Assembly: GCA_018830085.1 (NCBI GenBank)
Contig: JAHJSR010000017.1
Span: 1 to 47,980 of the forward strand
Origin: Patescibacteria group bacterium
GTDB lineage: Bacteria > Patescibacteriota > Patescibacteriia > 2-12-FULL-60-25
Direction of reading: 5' to 3'
Length of the DNA: 47,980 nt
Part shown: positions 3,255-47,953 of the stretch, piece by piece
Layout of the letters: each line of letters begins with the position of its first letter
Numbering within the stretch: the stretch's first letter is position 1
The notes under the pieces: generated by a model
What the model saw: only the letters and a program-made list of their open reading frames with translations
Database searches by the model: none
Told to the model about the DNA's origin: nothing
Made by a program: the position numbers and the translations under genes

Positions 3255-3351
3255 TGGGAGTTGAACAGGAAGGGCGTCGGGAAACTTAGGTTTCCCGATA
3301 GTGAAAACAGGCTAAGAAGAACAATTGAACATTAAACAATTTTTAAACATA

Positions 3352-4476
3352 CTAAATCAATTTTAAAATATTTTGATAAACAATCTCAGATGATCTTTCC
3401 CAATTCCACTTCTCTGCCTGAACCAAACCTTTCTTTGCCATCAAATCACAAGCACGTTCATCCTTAGCACATGTCATTATAGCGCCCATCCATCCATCTT
3501 GATCCAATGGATCAATAATCATTTCTGCTTCACCCACAACCTCTGGCAACGCTCCAACATCACTAACCGCTACAGGCGTACCAGCTTGCATTGCCTCTAG
3601 AGCCACTAATCCAAATCCTTCATCCAAAGATGGTACGGCTACCATATCAGCACCCAATAGCAATGTCCGTTTTTGCTCATCAGTCACACTACGAAATCTA
3701 TAAAAAAACTTTTCTTCACTACCTTTTAATTTTTTTATCTCTTCCTCAACATTATCAAACTTCCATCCATTAGCACCCGCAATAACCAAATCCGGAACTT
3801 GTGCAAATTCTTGTTTCGCCTTTTTCCAAGCTCTTATTAACATTACAACATTCTTTCTAGGTTCAACCGTCCCCAAACACAAAAAAAATTTCTTACCCAA
3901 CTCCAATTCTTTCTCACAAAAATCTTTGGCAATTTCTTTATTCTTTGTTAATTGTTGGCTATTAATTAAACCATCTCCTCCTTCACCAGTTACAATTATT
4001 TTTTCTGCTGGAATATTTAAAATTCTTGTAATTGATTTTTTTGTATACTCTGATACCGCAAATATCACCGGCGCTTTGCGCAATCCCTTTGCAAAAAGAT
4101 GAGTGGTGATTTTACTTTGTAACCAAGTTTGATTAAACCATTCCGGATGATCAAAAATAATCAAATCATGAACCCAAGGTACCACGGGTATTTTAATTGC
4201 TGGAGGTATGGAACCGCTAGGTACAAATAATATATCGCAAGGATTTTCTTTTAAGCCACCACGTAATGACTTACCAGTCGCATCATCCAACCAAATAATT
4301 TTACCCTCACTCCACTTACCACCTTTAGGAACATAAAACTTAATCTCAACATCGAGCACTTTGTCATGTGCAATGCGTTGCATGTGCAAACACAACTCTC
4401 TAGCCGCATGCGCCACTCCAGCTCCATCAGACCCATCTTGTGGTAAACACCGTAAATCCACTCCAACGATCTTCAT
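3352..4476 (-). CDS. Glycosyltransferase family 4 (GT-B)
   Basis: GTVEPRKNV, PSLDEGFGLVALEAMQAGTPVAVSDVGALPEVVG; start taken at MKIVGVDLR. Confidence 0.9.
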   Translation of the reverse strand: MKIVGVDLRCLPQDGSDGAGVAHAARELCLHMQRIAHDKVLDVEIKFYVPKGGKWSEGKIIWLDDATGKSLRGGLKENPCDILFVPSGSIPPAIKIPVVPWVHDLIIFDHPEWFNQTWLQSKITTHLFAKGLRKAPVIFAVSEYTKKSITRILNIPAEKIIVTGEGGDGLINSQQLTKNKEIAKDFCEKELELGKKFFLCLGTVEPRKNVVMLIRAWKKAKQEFAQVPDLVIAGANGWKFDNVEEEIKKLKGSEEKFFYRFRSVTDEQKRTLLLGADMVAVPSLDEGFGLVALEAMQAGTPVAVSDVGALPEVVGEAEMIIDPLDQDGWMGAIMTCAKDERACDLMAKKGLVQAEKWNWERSSEIVYQNILKLI

Positions 4477-4481
4477 AGAAA

Positions 4482-5417
4482 CTACCAAATATAAGAATCA
4501 AATACCCAAGAGGTTAATGCTTTTACATCTTTAAACCTCGTAAAATGATTATCACCACCCAACATAACAACAACGACCTCATGTCCCGCAGAATTACGCG
4601 TTACTTGAGCTAAACAATATCCAGCCTCTGGTAGTGATCCAGTTTTTGCAGCCATAATCTTATATGGATCTTCATTTAAAAATGATTGCAAAAGCAAATT
4701 AGTGGATTCAACATTATATTCCTTACCTTCTTTTGTAGTTAAATTAATTTCTGATAAATTTAAAGCCTCTCTAATCTCCGGATAATTCATCGCAATAGTA
4801 ATCAAAGCCGCAACATCAGCCGCACTACCTTTATTCTCAACATTCAAACCCGTAGGATCAGCAAAAGATAATGATACTAGATGTAACTCTTTAGCTTTTT
4901 GATTCATACGCAAAATAAATTCATCTTCACTCATTCCACTAGACCTAGCAAATGCAACAGCTACCTCGTTTACAGAACCGACCAACATTGCTTTTAAAGC
5001 ATCTCGCTTATCAATTGTTTCATTAATTCTAAATTCAGTACTGCTACGATAATCAAAATCAGATCTCACAAAAGACAAATTCCCCTCCAAGCCTTGATCA
5101 CTTTCTAACACTACTATTGATGTCATTAATTTAGACAAACTAGCTATTGATCTAACATCGTGTGGCGCTTTTGCAAAAAGAACACCGCCGCTGGCGACAT
5201 CTGCAACAAAAACACTCTGTCCGCTCACAACAAGGCCAAGATTATTGGGATCAATCTTGCGTGGAGTGGCAACCGCTTGACTTACTATACCCTCCTTTTG
5301 TATCAAAAGAGGCTCAACAGCCACACTCTGCCCATATACTTGCATGGGAGTTACCCCTGAAAAAGATGCTGGCGCAATAGCCAATACTGTCAATAATGAT
5401 AATAAATAATCAAACAT
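4482..5417 (-). CDS. D-alanyl-D-alanine carboxypeptidase-like serine hydrolase (peptidase S11)
   Basis: SLSK, SVN and KTG motifs in order; N-terminal hydrophobic segment. Confidence 0.88.
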   Translation of the reverse strand: MFDYLLSLLTVLAIAPASFSGVTPMQVYGQSVAVEPLLIQKEGIVSQAVATPRKIDPNNLGLVVSGQSVFVADVASGGVLFAKAPHDVRSIASLSKLMTSIVVLESDQGLEGNLSFVRSDFDYRSSTEFRINETIDKRDALKAMLVGSVNEVAVAFARSSGMSEDEFILRMNQKAKELHLVSLSFADPTGLNVENKGSAADVAALITIAMNYPEIREALNLSEINLTTKEGKEYNVESTNLLLQSFLNEDPYKIMAAKTGSLPEAGYCLAQVTRNSAGHEVVVVMLGGDNHFTRFKDVKALTSWVFDSYIW

Positions 5418-5418
5418 A

Positions 5419-5997
5419 TTATACAGACAAATCTTCTTTTACCTCCTCATCTTTTTCATCTTCCTTGGGGTTTAATTGATCTAAAATATCGGCAACTGCC
5501 GTATGACCTCTTAACTCCGAATAATCAGGCAAATCATCAATCGATTTTAAACCCAAGTGTTTTACAAATTCAAATGTCACAGCATATGTAGGTTGCCCTA
5601 ATCTTTGATCATCTTTTTGCTCTACCAACCCACGAATCATAAGATTACGCAAAATCATCGCCGACTGAACTCCCCGAATTTGTTCTAACTCAGGTCTGGT
5701 CATGGGTCCACGATAAGCAAGAATGGTCAACGCTTCCAAAGAAGCTCGGGTTAACTCACCCTGTTCTTCATCCTTAATTACTTTTTTAACAAATTCCGCA
5801 ACCTCTGGCACTGTTACCAATTCATACTCTTGTTCATGCTGTTGTAACATTACACCTCTATCATTTAAAATCTCCTCCAACTCAACCAAGGCCTGTTCAA
5901 CATCTTTAACCTTAGCCTCACAAATATCAGCCAACTTTTTTACTGTTAATGGCTTTGCCGCTGAAAATAAAACTGCTTCGATGTATTTTATTAACAT
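5419..5997 (-). CDS. scpB: Segregation and condensation protein ScpB
   Basis: Winged-helix ScpB pattern (ALTILAYRGPMTRPELEQIRGVQSAMILRNLMIRGLVEQ); adjacent to scpA. Confidence 0.92.
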   Translation of the reverse strand: MLIKYIEAVLFSAAKPLTVKKLADICEAKVKDVEQALVELEEILNDRGVMLQQHEQEYELVTVPEVAEFVKKVIKDEEQGELTRASLEALTILAYRGPMTRPELEQIRGVQSAMILRNLMIRGLVEQKDDQRLGQPTYAVTFEFVKHLGLKSIDDLPDYSELRGHTAVADILDQLNPKEDEKDEEVKEDLSV

Positions 5998-6004
5998 ATT
6001 TTTT

Positions 6005-6745
6005 TTAAATAAATGACTCTGCTAACGGATCTCTATCGCCCGCATCCGGATGACCGGATATATGAATATCATCAAACATAGCCTGTTGCTCAACACTAAT
6101 AAATCTTTGCTTAATAAGTTCCAATAATGCTAAAAAACTGACGATTGCATCAACTTTATGCGTAGCTCCCTTTACAAAACTCTTAAAAGTAAATTTTGCA
6201 TGGCTTCTGACGCGTCCCACCAAATCAGATATTCTTTCCTGAATATGTACAGCTTTGTGGATAGCCGCCTTTGGCAATTTAATAATAGGTTCAATCCTAG
6301 AGATAACTCTTTGCATGGCTTCCATTAAAACTTCACTATTTATACTTGGGGATGGTGAAAACTTAACCTCTCTCTTACGCACTACTACTTGCTTACGAGA
6401 AAAAGACTTCACTCCCATTTTCCATCTCTCATCTATCTTTCTGGCTGCAGTCACAAACATCTGATACTGACGTAATTGCGATTCCAAATCCGGACCATCT
6501 TCCATTTCATCATCTTCAAATCCTGGAAGCATTAATTTAGATTTAAGATAAATAAGTTTAGATGCTACTACCAAAAAATCTGCCATCTCTTCTGGCAGTA
6601 CTGGCTTTGACTTCATATACTCCACAAACTGATCTGTAACAGCCGCTAATGAAATTTCCGAAATCTCAAGCTCTTGTTTCTCAACTAACTGCAATAAAAG
6701 GTCCAATGGGCCTTCAAAATGCGCAATCTGTACCGAATACGCCAT
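6005..6745 (-). CDS. scpA: Segregation and condensation protein ScpA
   Basis: FEGPLDLLLQLVEKQELEISEISLAAVTDQF...FLVVASKLIYLKSKLMLP; C-terminal FLALLELIKQ. Confidence 0.94.
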   Translation of the reverse strand: MAYSVQIAHFEGPLDLLLQLVEKQELEISEISLAAVTDQFVEYMKSKPVLPEEMADFLVVASKLIYLKSKLMLPGFEDDEMEDGPDLESQLRQYQMFVTAARKIDERWKMGVKSFSRKQVVVRKREVKFSPSPSINSEVLMEAMQRVISRIEPIIKLPKAAIHKAVHIQERISDLVGRVRSHAKFTFKSFVKGATHKVDAIVSFLALLELIKQRFISVEQQAMFDDIHISGHPDAGDRDPLAESFI

Positions 6746-6778
6746 GCATCAAATAATACTAGATTAACGCTTTTTTGG

Positions 6779-7606
6779 CTAGATGTCTGCGTTTTTGAGA
6801 GTTAAAACATTGATCTGCGCTGGCGCAAACCATCTAAAAGGAATTTTAAACGTTCCAACGCCATTTGATACCAATAATTTCATACTATTAATTTTATACA
6901 AACCTGATATATAATCAGTCCCATAAACCGAAGGCACATATGGCACCCATTTACCAAACAGTGTAATTTGACCTCCGTGAGTATGCCCGGATAAAACCAA
7001 ATCCGGCATCGAATCCGGAAGCGTAATTATTTGATCAGGAGTGTGTGATAATAAAATAAAAAAATCTTCAGCCTTGACGTCCACCTCCGCTTTTTTATAA
7101 TCCGGCTCACCATACGTTGGATCAGCGATTCCGCCTAACCAAAAACCACCCTCGCCCAAATCAATCCATGTATTTTTATTATCAATTAATTTAATACCGT
7201 ACTTCTCCATCGCGACCGGCATTAATTCAGCAGCTCTAAAATAATCATGATTACCCATTACAGCATAAATACCTAAAGGTGCATCAATTTTACTCAATTC
7301 CCTAATAACCGGCTCAACATAATCCGCATGATAATCGACATAATCACCACCCAATAATACAAGATCCGGATCTTGAGCATTAACAGCCGTGATAATCATT
7401 TTCAACCAATTCTCACTTCTCCTTGGCCCATAATGAACATCGCTCAAAAAAACAATTTTAACATCTTCGAGTTTGCTGGGCATGGAATCAAATAATATCT
7501 CATTTTGCACTATTTCAGGATAATACGCTTGCAAATAACTATCCGAAATAACCAAAACAAACAAAACTACTAGTATAGCCAATATTTTTAATATTTTTTT
7601 ACTCAT
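6779..7606 (-). CDS. Calcineurin-like metallophosphoesterase (YkuE/YaeI-like, N-terminal TM)
   Basis: LSDVHYG, GGDYVD, GNHDY, LSGHTHGGQ motifs. Confidence 0.9.
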   Translation of the reverse strand: MSKKILKILAILVVLFVLVISDSYLQAYYPEIVQNEILFDSMPSKLEDVKIVFLSDVHYGPRRSENWLKMIITAVNAQDPDLVLLGGDYVDYHADYVEPVIRELSKIDAPLGIYAVMGNHDYFRAAELMPVAMEKYGIKLIDNKNTWIDLGEGGFWLGGIADPTYGEPDYKKAEVDVKAEDFFILLSHTPDQIITLPDSMPDLVLSGHTHGGQITLFGKWVPYVPSVYGTDYISGLYKINSMKLLVSNGVGTFKIPFRWFAPAQINVLTLKNADI

Positions 7607-7635
7607 GTAATTCTAACGAATCATCAACAAAAAAC

Positions 7636-8739
7636 TTACACTTTTTTTAAATCAACGCCTATTGCCTCTTTAACACTTTTAAAACCATCCTCATTTAATT
7701 TTTCTGAAAGCTCTATCATTAATTGGGATGGCCATAATGGACCATGATAAATCAAACCAGTCACAATCTGTACAGCCGAAGCCCCTAATCTTATTTTACG
7801 ATACAAATCCTCTACCGAATCAATACCTCCTATACCAATAAATTCAAACCTCGGTCTACCATTCTTTGCCATAAATGCCAAAACCTTATCGGCCTTAAGT
7901 TTTAAACCCAAACCAGAAGCTCCACCCTTCATTGTATCTGTTAAACGTCTTGATTTTAATCCTTCGCGACTATGAGTTAAGTTGGTCAAAACAAAACCCC
8001 GTGCCCAACCGTATTTTGCAGTATCCTCCAAAATCTCCAACATTCTTGTTTCAGATAACTCTGGTGACAATTTAAAGAACACTGGTTTATCTGGATGCAA
8101 GGCATCAATCCTACGTAACAATTCTCTATAAAGATCAGCATTATCACAATACTGACAGCTATCACCCACATTAGGACACGAAACATTAACTGTTACATAA
8201 TCACCAAACTCTTGTAACTTTTCAAAGGCTGTCAACAAATCATTTAATCCAGCCTCACCTGATAAATTAGGTACGTTTGATTTTGCTACTGAAACACCCA
8301 CAGGTATAGACCAACCACTTTTTTCTTTTGCGAATCTACGCTTACAAACATCTGCCCCAGAACTTAGTAAACCATAATTCACAATCAAAGCAGTATCTGT
8401 CGGCAATCTCCATAATCTAGGTCGCGGATTACCAGGGCTCATTTGTCCAGTGATTGTCCCTGCTTCCACAAAAGAAAATCCCACTTCTTTTAAGATATTA
8501 ATTATTCTTCCCTCTTTATCAAATCCCGCACCAACTCCAAGTGGATGAATTAATTTAATTCCAGCTATTTCAGTTTCAAGTGACGCATCAATAACCGGCC
8601 AACAAAAACCCCTTACAATCCATCTAGTCAACCTATTACTACCCAAAACCCTGCCCACAAAATTAAAAAAGTGATGCATAGCTTCAGGATCAAATGCAAA
8701 AAATATGGGTTTTAAAATCTGCTCGTATAAAAACGACAT
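7636..8739 (-). CDS. pyrD: Dihydroorotate dehydrogenase, class 2
   Basis: LGVGAGFDKEG, VNVSCPN, FFKLSPEL, IGIGGI, GASAVQIVTGLIY; start taken at MSFLYEQ. Confidence 0.93.
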   Translation of the reverse strand: MSFLYEQILKPIFFAFDPEAMHHFFNFVGRVLGSNRLTRWIVRGFCWPVIDASLETEIAGIKLIHPLGVGAGFDKEGRIINILKEVGFSFVEAGTITGQMSPGNPRPRLWRLPTDTALIVNYGLLSSGADVCKRRFAKEKSGWSIPVGVSVAKSNVPNLSGEAGLNDLLTAFEKLQEFGDYVTVNVSCPNVGDSCQYCDNADLYRELLRRIDALHPDKPVFFKLSPELSETRMLEILEDTAKYGWARGFVLTNLTHSREGLKSRRLTDTMKGGASGLGLKLKADKVLAFMAKNGRPRFEFIGIGGIDSVEDLYRKIRLGASAVQIVTGLIYHGPLWPSQLMIELSEKLNEDGFKSVKEAIGVDLKKV

Positions 8740-36596: not shown

Positions 36597-38099
36597 TTAC
36601 ACAGGCAATAACCTTGGATCTGCCAATCTGGGTAAAATGACTGTTAGTAACAATATCAACACACCTGTAAGCAATATCATATACGCAACATATTCTGACC
36701 ATTTTCGTTTTAAACGCAAAATCACAAAAAACAAAACACAACCCAACAATATTATTGCCAATGGTACAAAAACCTTAAATATAATCGCGAGAATTCCACC
36801 CAATATTAGCCACAAACCCATTACTTGCCACAATACAAATACTGACTCATTTTTTAGTTTATATCTAGCGTAAAAATACAAAGCCTGAAAAAAAGAAAAC
36901 ACACCAACCAAGCTAGTAAGTGAAACATCGGAGTCCGCGCCACGCCTAACAAATTGAAACGATAAAAATGATAAACCCAAAGCCAATAAATACTCTTTTA
37001 ACCAAAAAAATTTTTCATCAATATTCATCAATGCATCACCTGCCACCAAATATGCAAAACTCAAAAAAACCAAAGCGGCACCAAAAACAGGCCAACCCAA
37101 TATAAATGAACCAAAAAGGTAAAAAAACAATAACCAATTACTATTTTCATTTTGCTTATTAGCCCAAACCCTCCATAAAAATAAACCACTAATAACTACT
37201 ATCATAAAAACAACCACTGACGAAAAATCCATTAATACCCAATCCGACCTACCCAAACCTATTCCAACACCTAATAACATAGCAAAACTAACCCAACTAA
37301 AAACCTTCAGCAATCCATCCGTAATCATTATTCGCACAAAACCGACAAACTCATCTTTTGATAACAACCCCCAAACAATAAAATCTATCAAAAAAACCCA
37401 AGAAATATTAAATAAATGAACCGAATTAACAGCTTGTCCGCCAAAACCAGTGAACCATCTTATGAGTTGCGCATTGTTCCAATAAGAATTTAAAGTCAAA
37501 GATCCCAACTCCGAAATGATCTGTCCACTAAACCCTAAACCATTAACCAAAAGAACCAAAAGCAAAATCATGCTTGGTATTAAAAAAAAGATATTAATCG
37601 CCAAACACAAAGCCATACCCACAATCACGCCCGAGAAAATATCCTCATTTTCTTTATATTCTTTATATGCAAACACAACCGAAACTCCCCATGCAAAACC
37701 TCTAAGCATTGCATCAGGACCAATAGAAAAAGGAAAAAAACCAAAAGAAACTAGATACTGAGCAATACCCGATACAGATAATTGCGAACTCACAAGATCC
37801 CTCCCCCAAAAACCAAGCAAATATACTATTAATGCAATCCCTAAACCAACAATTACTGGATTTTGATACAAATTCCAATCCAACGCGTCTACCTTTTTAA
37901 AAACATATTTTCTTATTACTACTACCGAAAAGATACCACCTAAATATAGCAATGGATACCATAAAAAAATCTCCAAAGGGTTGGGTGATGACACACCTCT
38001 AAGAAATGATCCCAAAAAATATATCACCACCGATCCAATAACAAGAACCGGTAATAACGATATATTTACTCCGTTTTTCCAAATACCACTTTTTATCAT
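36597..38099 (-). CDS. Large polytopic membrane protein, unknown
   Basis: 500 aa with many hydrophobic helices; overlaps the 38096 gene. Confidence 0.75.
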   Translation of the reverse strand: MIKSGIWKNGVNISLLPVLVIGSVVIYFLGSFLRGVSSPNPLEIFLWYPLLYLGGIFSVVVIRKYVFKKVDALDWNLYQNPVIVGLGIALIVYLLGFWGRDLVSSQLSVSGIAQYLVSFGFFPFSIGPDAMLRGFAWGVSVVFAYKEYKENEDIFSGVIVGMALCLAINIFFLIPSMILLLVLLVNGLGFSGQIISELGSLTLNSYWNNAQLIRWFTGFGGQAVNSVHLFNISWVFLIDFIVWGLLSKDEFVGFVRIMITDGLLKVFSWVSFAMLLGVGIGLGRSDWVLMDFSSVVVFMIVVISGLFLWRVWANKQNENSNWLLFFYLFGSFILGWPVFGAALVFLSFAYLVAGDALMNIDEKFFWLKEYLLALGLSFLSFQFVRRGADSDVSLTSLVGVFSFFQALYFYARYKLKNESVFVLWQVMGLWLILGGILAIIFKVFVPLAIILLGCVLFFVILRLKRKWSEYVAYMILLTGVLILLLTVILPRLADPRLLPV

Positions 38100-46400: not shown

Positions 46401-46658
46401 ATGATGAATAATCGATTCATAAAACCCAAAAAACCAATGCGTTTAGGCTCAGATGCCAACAGTCGATTTGCCACTAAAGACAAATCCCGACCAACCATGC
46501 ACAACAATCATCGAGCTAAGCAAAGATCACCCGATCCGGACGACACTCAGATCGAAGCCGTACAGCTAGATCTGCCCTATATCGATGAAGAAGGAAACGT
46601 CCTATTCTGGACAGCTCTCTGCTCATGCCTCAAGCCTCCAACCCCGGAAGACAAATGA
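46401..46658 (+). CDS. Small hypothetical protein (85 aa)
   Basis: AAGGAGG ribosome site before ATGATG; composition distinct from AT-rich neighbours; followed by AACCGCCG/CGGCGGTT hairpin. Confidence 0.6.
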   Translation: MMNNRFIKPKKPMRLGSDANSRFATKDKSRPTMHNNHRAKQRSPDPDDTQIEAVQLDLPYIDEEGNVLFWTALCSCLKPPTPEDK

Positions 46659-46860: not shown

Positions 46861-46889
46861 TTGACAAAATCCCAAAAATATGATATATT
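46861..46889 (+). promoter_or_regulatory. Strong sigma70-type promoter
   Basis: TTGACA-N17-TATATT, near consensus. Confidence 0.8.
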
Positions 46890-46895
46890 AATACG

Positions 46896-47290
46896 TCAAA
46901 CTGAAATAACCGTGCCAGATACACATTACACAGTTTGAACACTTCAGAGGAGAGAGGATTTGAGCCAAGCTCGAATCAACAAAACTGAAGTAAGATAAGC
47001 GTAAATAACGGATGAGGAGCCGTAAACGCCTGATTTGAATACGCAAAAATAGACCACGGAGACCATCTCCGAGGAGGATTTTTAACATAAACAAACATGT
47101 TGTGATCTTAGACCCGGCCTTGCAATCCATGCTTTTGCAAAGCCGACCCAAGTTTCATAACTCAAAATTAATCAACCGCTCATCGACAAAATACTACCAA
47201 TGACCATGAACCAATCATGAACATTGGCAGCGCCACGATCTTGGACATTGTGTCCTCGCTTCGTGGTGTCAAAAAGTTCAGGAGAAAAAA
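46896..47290 (+). ncRNA. Candidate long structured leader/ncRNA
   Basis: At least six perfect or near-perfect hairpins between a strong promoter and the first downstream CDS; no credible long ORF. Confidence 0.55.
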
Positions 47291-47572
47291 ATGCTGGAAG
47301 TAACGATTTTCGTAATCATCGCGCTGTTTGTATCAGGAACCTGGATCGCCCTGCGGTCCCGAGTCCTGACCGCGATGCAGAACATCGTGGCCAACAGCAA
47401 AACCTCAACCCCCTACCTCCCGGCTCCGATCGAGGACATCAACGTTCTCGATCCCGCTGACTTCCCCGAGGAAATCAGAGAACTGCTCAAGGAAGCTGCC
47501 TTCCGAGACCTATACTCGGCTGACGAGCTCAAAGCTCTGAAAGCTGAGATGGACAGCCGCAAAGCGGCATAA
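47291..47572 (+). CDS. Small single-TM protein with acidic tail, unknown (93 aa)
   Basis: AGGAG ribosome site; MLEVTIFVIIALFVSGTWIAL TM; GC-rich. Confidence 0.75.
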   Translation: MLEVTIFVIIALFVSGTWIALRSRVLTAMQNIVANSKTSTPYLPAPIEDINVLDPADFPEEIRELLKEAAFRDLYSADELKALKAEMDSRKAA

Positions 47573-47586
47573 CGAGGAGAAAACAC

Positions 47587-47856
47587 GTGCTAACAGCTAT
47601 TTTTTTGTCCTTTTTCGTCTCCACATTCTTCTCGGCTATGGTCGGCTTGCCGATCGTAGCCGACATCATGAACAAGGCCGTCGAGAACGACGTCGAGCGA
47701 GCGATCGCCAACCTCACCGGTGAGGAGCATCCCTTGCTCCAGCTCGATGAACCTTTCGAGGGTATGGCTCACCGCCCGCTCTCGCTTTCGCAACTCGAAC
47801 TGGAGCTGTACAGCGACGAGGCAGCTGTCGCACAACGCGACAGCCTGGCCGCCTGA
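47587..47856 (+). CDS. Small single-TM protein with acidic tail, unknown (89 aa, GTG start)
   Basis: GAGGAG ribosome site before GTG; MLTAIFLSFFVSTFFSAMVGLPIV TM; C-terminal motif shared with previous gene. Confidence 0.7.
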   Translation: MLTAIFLSFFVSTFFSAMVGLPIVADIMNKAVENDVERAIANLTGEEHPLLQLDEPFEGMAHRPLSLSQLELELYSDEAAVAQRDSLAA

Positions 47857-47912: not shown

Positions 47913-47953
47913 GAAGTTTTAATGAATGTCGAATGACAAAACATTAAAACTTC
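47913..47953. repeat. 12-bp perfect inverted repeat with inner hairpin
   Basis: GAAGTTTTAATG (47913-47924) / CATTAAAACTTC (47942-47953), inner TGTC-GAAT-GACA. Confidence 0.65.

Follow-up and report, generated by a model that had tools for sequence, protein, structure and literature searches.

We analysed a window of 47,980 nucleotides, which is an entire contig (C2) of its genome (G000), from a small-genomed bacterium that we take to be a member of Candidatus Uhrbacteria. The window ends within an operon that is headed by a promoter and a structured leader RNA, followed by two small open reading frames, ORF1 and ORF2, placed 14 nt apart (Table 1). The two neighbouring frames of 93 and 89 aa, their coordinates and their spacing are exactly as given in the preliminary description, and the strong Shine-Dalgarno (SD) sequences listed there are both present.

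Table 1. Features of the operon and its surroundings in the window
Feature	Position	Strand	Remarks
Upstream small gene	46401..46658	+	85 aa, no family; C/G-rich inverted repeat after it
Promoter, TTGACA-17 nt-TATATT	46861..46889	+	sigma70-type
Structured 5' leader RNA	46895..47290	+	fold z = -5.43; positional counterparts in G001-G008
Leader core, CUUCAG-AGGAGAGAGG-hairpin GAUUUGAGC/GCUCGAAUC-CUGAAG	46942..46990	+	
Second GAGGAG of leader	47014..47019	+	no start codon behind
Third SD-like stretch of leader, GAGGAGG	47071..47077	+	no start codon behind
SD of ORF1, AGGAG	47280..47284	+	six bases before ATG
ORF1	47291..47572	+	93 aa, ATG start
ORF1, parts		+	N-terminal hydrophobic helix, then basic residues, then acidic C-terminal helix
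SD of ORF2, GAGGAG	47574..47579	+	seven bases before GTG
ORF2	47587..47856	+	89 aa, GTG start
ORF2, parts		+	N-terminal hydrophobic helix; acidic tail with DSLAA end
Overlap with start of contig C87	47862..47980	+	119 bases, identical to C87 (L012) 1-119
Perfect inverted repeat GAAGTTTTAATG..CATTAAAACTTC	47913..47953	+	3' of ORF2

Both ORFs would encode single-pass membrane proteins with acidic tails, a topology also proposed in the preliminary description and read here from the hydrophobic segment in each sequence. Because the basic residues of ORF1 come after its hydrophobic stretch, the positive-inside rule predicts an N-out/C-in orientation with a cytoplasmic tail. The AF2 model of ORF1, which was based on a two-row alignment and is of low confidence (mean pLDDT 59), contains helices at residues 2-35 and 60-92; it was dropped as a query for structure searches, as the two helices were too uncertain. 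ORF2 is a putative coding sequence on account of its composition and its SD. The two ORFs had been suggested to be paralogues with a common C-terminal motif, which did not hold: their local alignment score of 22 is below the mean of 27.9 for shuffled sequences, the C-terminal motifs compared alone are equalled by 15% of the shuffles (p about 0.15), and BLASTP aligns three residues with an E-value of 15. None of these tests makes ORF1 and ORF2 paralogues. Both proteins end in Ala-Ala (47564-47569 and 47848-47853), as do some ORFs in the sister operons; in total, 10 of 35 operon proteins, which are partly related and hence not independent counts, have this ending versus 2 of 115 host ORFs. The tmRNA tag of the genome ends in LA, and the Ala-Ala end is a possible degron.

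Profile searches with ORF1 and ORF2 against Pfam, PHROG, NCBIfam and PADLOC gave no family match (a PHROG match and a Pfam match, with E-values of 0.026 and 0.13, are both at chance level), which agrees with the earlier remark that no family was recognised. Searches of phages, IMG/VR viruses and plasmids identified no relative of the ORFs, and the search of solved structures returned weak chance matches only. A homolog of ORF1 was found in the sister species G007 (34%, z = 9.4, no shuffle scoring as high) and, via this protein, another in G008, both located at the same locus. A profile of these three members recovered no further convincing member from 381 genomes of the class. ORF2 is an orphan, as its search in 57 relatives retrieved no homolog. 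The proposed co-occurrence of the pair with the leader is therefore not borne out, since homologs of ORF1 are placed behind the leader in two sister species and those of ORF2 in none; in six sister species the locus is present with other genes.

The layout is the same throughout the genus; in each of its nine genomes (G000-G008), the same chromosomal place contains a small gene, a promoter of the TTGACA-17-TATA type in the same position, a folded leader of 345-480 nt and a DUF11-like gene. SD-preceded ORFs follow the leader in eight of the nine genomes, and the genes between the leader and the DUF11-like gene are restricted to the genus; G006 is nearly devoid of them. The gene beyond the operon probably encodes a DUF11-like membrane protein, as judged by reading its repeats, and has no profile match. 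In 15 genomes from other genera for which the flanks of the DUF11-like gene were read, the operon is missing, and the neighbours are ndk, rpmF, nusB, rnc or unrelated genes. Since the layout recurs in nine genomes of the genus and is missing in the other genera read, the locus is a genus-level feature and not a random pair of ORFs. The place, promoter and folded leader shared by all nine genomes in this respect support the idea that the small membrane proteins are encoded in a cassette led by an RNA. In G000, the continuation on contig C87 contains SD-preceded ORFs of 98 and 28 aa, followed by the DUF11-like gene, which is encoded on the other strand. The 119-base overlap between C2 and C87 suggests an assembly branch, possibly due to strain variation, within the operon.

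The genes behind the leader differ between the species, although their order is partly conserved. In G000, they are ORF1, ORF2 and two further orphans. In G007 and G008, an unrelated TM protein comes first and the ORF1 homolog second, and the further genes encode a Zn-ribbon protein whose tail is rich in Lys and Gly, a second Cys-rich protein and a DUF1232 protein. A relation of ORF2 to the TM protein that precedes the ORF1 homolog in these species was considered and rejected; ORF2 is a protein of the same kind, with a similarity not above that of shuffled sequences. In G001-G004, the first gene encodes a Zn-ribbon protein and the last one a small hydrophobic protein; the small proteins between them are variable and in G003 appear to be tandem paralogues. 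G005 contains a Zn-ribbon protein and two microproteins followed by a DUF1232-like protein, and almost no genes remain in the operon of G006. For the G008 Zn-ribbon protein, a relative is recognisable in G007 alone (E-value below 0.001), which indicates a fast change of the operon genes, and no counterpart of its gene was found in G000.

The codon composition of the operon also sets it apart. The GC-rich nature of the two ORFs is more pronounced than first put, with GC3 values of 68 and 72% versus 20-45% for the other long ORFs in the window, those for ribosomal proteins and EF-Tu included. The mean GC3 of the operon is 68-90% in every species tested, whereas that of the long flanking ORFs ranges from 30% in G000 (operon 68%) to 75% in G003; the GC12 of the operon genes is much nearer to the host value than their GC3. 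At two-fold NNY codons in the window, C is used in 76% of cases in the operon; the corresponding values are 16% for the genes of ribosomal proteins and elongation factors and 11% for the remaining genes. The codon choice of the operon is thus neither that of the average host gene nor that of the highly expressed genes, and a reading of the bias as a sign of high expression, judged against the host's own genes, was rejected. The high GC3 could result either from a steady foreign supply or from selection on RNA or translation.

The preliminary description had placed a structured leader upstream of the pair, and the predicted folding energy of the window leader, -107 kcal/mol versus -79 kcal/mol for dinucleotide shuffles, bears this out (z-score in Table 1). 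GAGGAG occurs three times in the leader, in no case with a start codon behind it. The first-domain junction, CUUCAG-AGGAGAGAGG-hairpin-CUGAAG, is also present in G007 and G008 with different letters in the hairpin, and the leader motif GAGGAGAGA is found in eight of the nine genomes. In common with the leaders of the sister species, the window has a sigma70-type promoter directly 5' of the RNA and a GAGGAGAGAG core (46948-46957) with folded domains after it. The covariance model R3, described below, does not detect the leader in the window, where it has one chance match (7.1 bits, 37562-37656), and it also misses the leaders of G005, G007 and G008. Our claim for the window is therefore limited to place, promoter, core motif and folding, and its leader may be assigned to the sister RNA family by its place and a short motif. 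A scan of the window and nine sister loci against Rfam 15 recovered only tRNAs above the gathering threshold, and scans by E-value gave chance matches only.

The leaders of G001, G002, G003, G004 and G006 consist of a hairpin, H1, that has GAGGAG in its loop, a second, long hairpin, H2, whose upper part contains CUCUC, and H3, a long stem in which GCAGAGGAGGA is located. The models R2 and R3, built from these five leaders, identified one more copy in G006 as well as copies in three genomes of one other family (G253, G130 and G056) and in G177, G275 and G021. The RNA family thus consists of the five sister-species leaders, the second G006 copy and the copies in six genomes elsewhere in the class, all six of which have a TTGAC-type promoter match just 5' of the RNA. 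Matches in G263, G232 and G324, which lack the promoter and the H1-H2-H3 arrangement, and an AT-rich match inside an ORF (G000:C1:1241) were dismissed as chance. Among the 12 sequences, 36 of the 42 pairs show changes on both sides, in an alignment fitted to the model, which favours this count; there are 104 such cells versus 32 in shuffles, and slid versions drop to 14-18 pairs. Complementarity between H1 and the top of H2 is present in all 12 sequences (mean score 21.5 versus 12.6 for shuffled H2). Crossed H1/H2 pairs score 20.0, and the pairing is therefore a conserved complementarity rather than strong covariation; single members have extended pairs. No Rfam match was obtained for the sister leader family, and a search of a literature collection for the leader RNA returned nothing relevant. 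The second copy in G006 (L121, contig C10, reverse strand, about 3300-8700) heads a GC-rich region that, as read by eye, encodes a VWA-like protein and includes an AAA/MoxR-like gene with an apparently broken frame. Behind the leader RNAs in G130 (L135) and G253 (L122) are proteins of 141-142 aa with Lys-rich tails ending in QAA and IAA, which are possibly related to each other and are flanked by small hydrophobic proteins.

Other RNA elements are found in the sister operons. An intergenic element, CCYC...UGAGCUUCUGUC...GACGGAGGCUC...GRGG, occurs in nine copies in G001-G004 and G006, where it is located before operon genes or, in the decayed operon of G006, has no clear gene behind it. The SD region is predicted to pair with the upstream CCYC, and 6 of the 15 pairs show double changes, which amount to 12 cells versus 3.4 in shuffles; none of 500 shuffles reaches 12. 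This element, modelled in G001-G004 and G006 only, was not found in the window. The 3' ends of the operons in G001, G002, G003, G004 and G006 (L082, L078, L097, L080 and L081) have a structured element with UCUCUCC(UC), complementary to the GAGGAGAGA of the leader, so that a contact between the 5' and 3' ends is possible. Short palindromic or repeated elements, such as GTAGGGATAACC...GGTTATCCCTAC and runs of ACATGTAGCATGTAAC, are located between operon genes or within a leader in some species (L011, L041, L121).

The leader resembles several known RNAs in part. Similar to SD-sequestering mRNA leaders, such as riboswitches, RNA thermometers and ribosomal protein leaders, it combines a promoter with a folded 5' UTR, and the sister species also have hairpins that pair with the SDs of individual genes; it differs in that it has no Rfam match, a long multi-domain fold with exposed SD-like loops, and orphan genes with a high turnover behind it. 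OLE, raiA, GOLLD and ROOL are large bacterial RNAs with an unknown or partly known role, and OLE is linked to small membrane proteins. The long conserved fold is shared with these RNAs and the small membrane proteins with OLE, but the architecture is different, there is no cmscan match, and the RNA is tied to Patescibacteria and to GC-rich orphan genes. Decoy RNAs of the CsrB/RsmZ type contain repeated GGA motifs in their loops, as seen here, whereas the present RNA has GAGGAG(AG) as its motif, for which the hairpin that follows provides a pyrimidine-rich partner, and the RNA leads an operon. For the proteins, one gene in the sister operons matches DUF1232 (PF06803), outside the part of the operon contained in the window.

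We infer, with a probability of about 0.5, that the locus is a genus-wide chromosomal operon for membrane-anchored proteins and Zn-ribbon proteins that is under translational control. What the analysis shows is the locus and its synteny, a promoter match, the folding of the leader, the turnover of the genes, the GC3 plateau and the covariation in the sister RNAs; to these, the reading would add transcription, translational control, membrane topology and a common assembly. The strong housekeeping-type promoter would drive one long transcript, the 5' leader of which would fold into a compact RNA with several SD-like GAGGAG stretches that lack start codons. In one sub-clade, a covarying hairpin would in addition pair with the SD region of downstream operon genes, and the folding of the RNA may thereby set the amount made of each small protein. 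ORF1 and ORF2 would anchor an assembly with other operon products, for which the Zn-ribbon proteins with Lys/Gly-rich tails and the DUF1232 proteins of the sister species are candidate partners.

The locus could also be read with the leader itself as the functional product, a trans-acting non-coding RNA that, for example, holds ribosomes or an RNA-binding protein via its GAGGAG loops, and the ORFs as freely changing passengers. We regard this as improbable, yet as the most serious of the alternatives. The fold of the RNA is conserved to a greater degree than the downstream genes, several of the SD-like stretches lack a start codon, G006 has kept its leader although little is left of the operon, and the second G006 copy and those in other families precede different genes. 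A free RNA however fits less well with the SD-preceded ORFs behind it in eight of the nine genomes, with the lack of a conserved terminator between the leader and the first ORF in the sequences read, and with the further RNA elements placed directly on the SDs of downstream genes in one sub-clade.

It is less probable still that the genes are recent arrivals from a phage, a plasmid or a cassette element behind a resident promoter and that their GC3 is that of the donor. Such an origin would account for a GC3 of 68% in a host at 30%, the high gene turnover, the tRNA-Arg located about 2 kb upstream and the contig break within the operon. Against it, all nine genomes have the operon in the same place with a partly conserved order, no integrase, transposase or phage gene was recognised among the operon ORFs, phages, IMG/VR and plasmids gave no match, and GC3 is high in every species with GC12 much nearer to the host value. 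The preliminary interpretation as an RNA-controlled pair with a pore-forming, holin-like or type I toxin-like role is very unlikely: the small size, the one hydrophobic helix and the structured leader fit it and nothing further does, while searches for toxin, defence or holin families (PADLOC, NCBIfam, Pfam, PHROG) and of phages, viruses and plasmids were empty or at chance level. The ORFs are also longer than typical type I toxins and have long acidic tails, no antisense gene was noticed, the two are unrelated to each other, and Zn-ribbon and DUF1232 proteins are present at the same place in the sister operons.

Beyond the translationally controlled operon favoured here, the leaders may tentatively represent a Patescibacteria class of structured RNAs at the head of hypervariable operons. 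Their SD-like loops would be exposed, and their GGAGAGAG/CUCUC hairpins would resemble kissing loops. The operons would encode Zn-ribbon proteins and membrane microproteins specific to their lineage, in a codon composition that is decoupled from that of the host genome, and the whole might be an RNA-plus-microprotein system without a described counterpart, of which the window locus would be a diverged member. With its covariance model and the loci listed for it, the RNA family provides a sequence handle for others to use. The genomes of Patescibacteria are very small, yet all nine genomes of the genus retain a promoter and an elaborate leader at one site, and eight of them also retain several genes without known relatives there. 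A conserved RNA over fast-changing membrane proteins would fit an interface in an arms race or a host-specific attachment.
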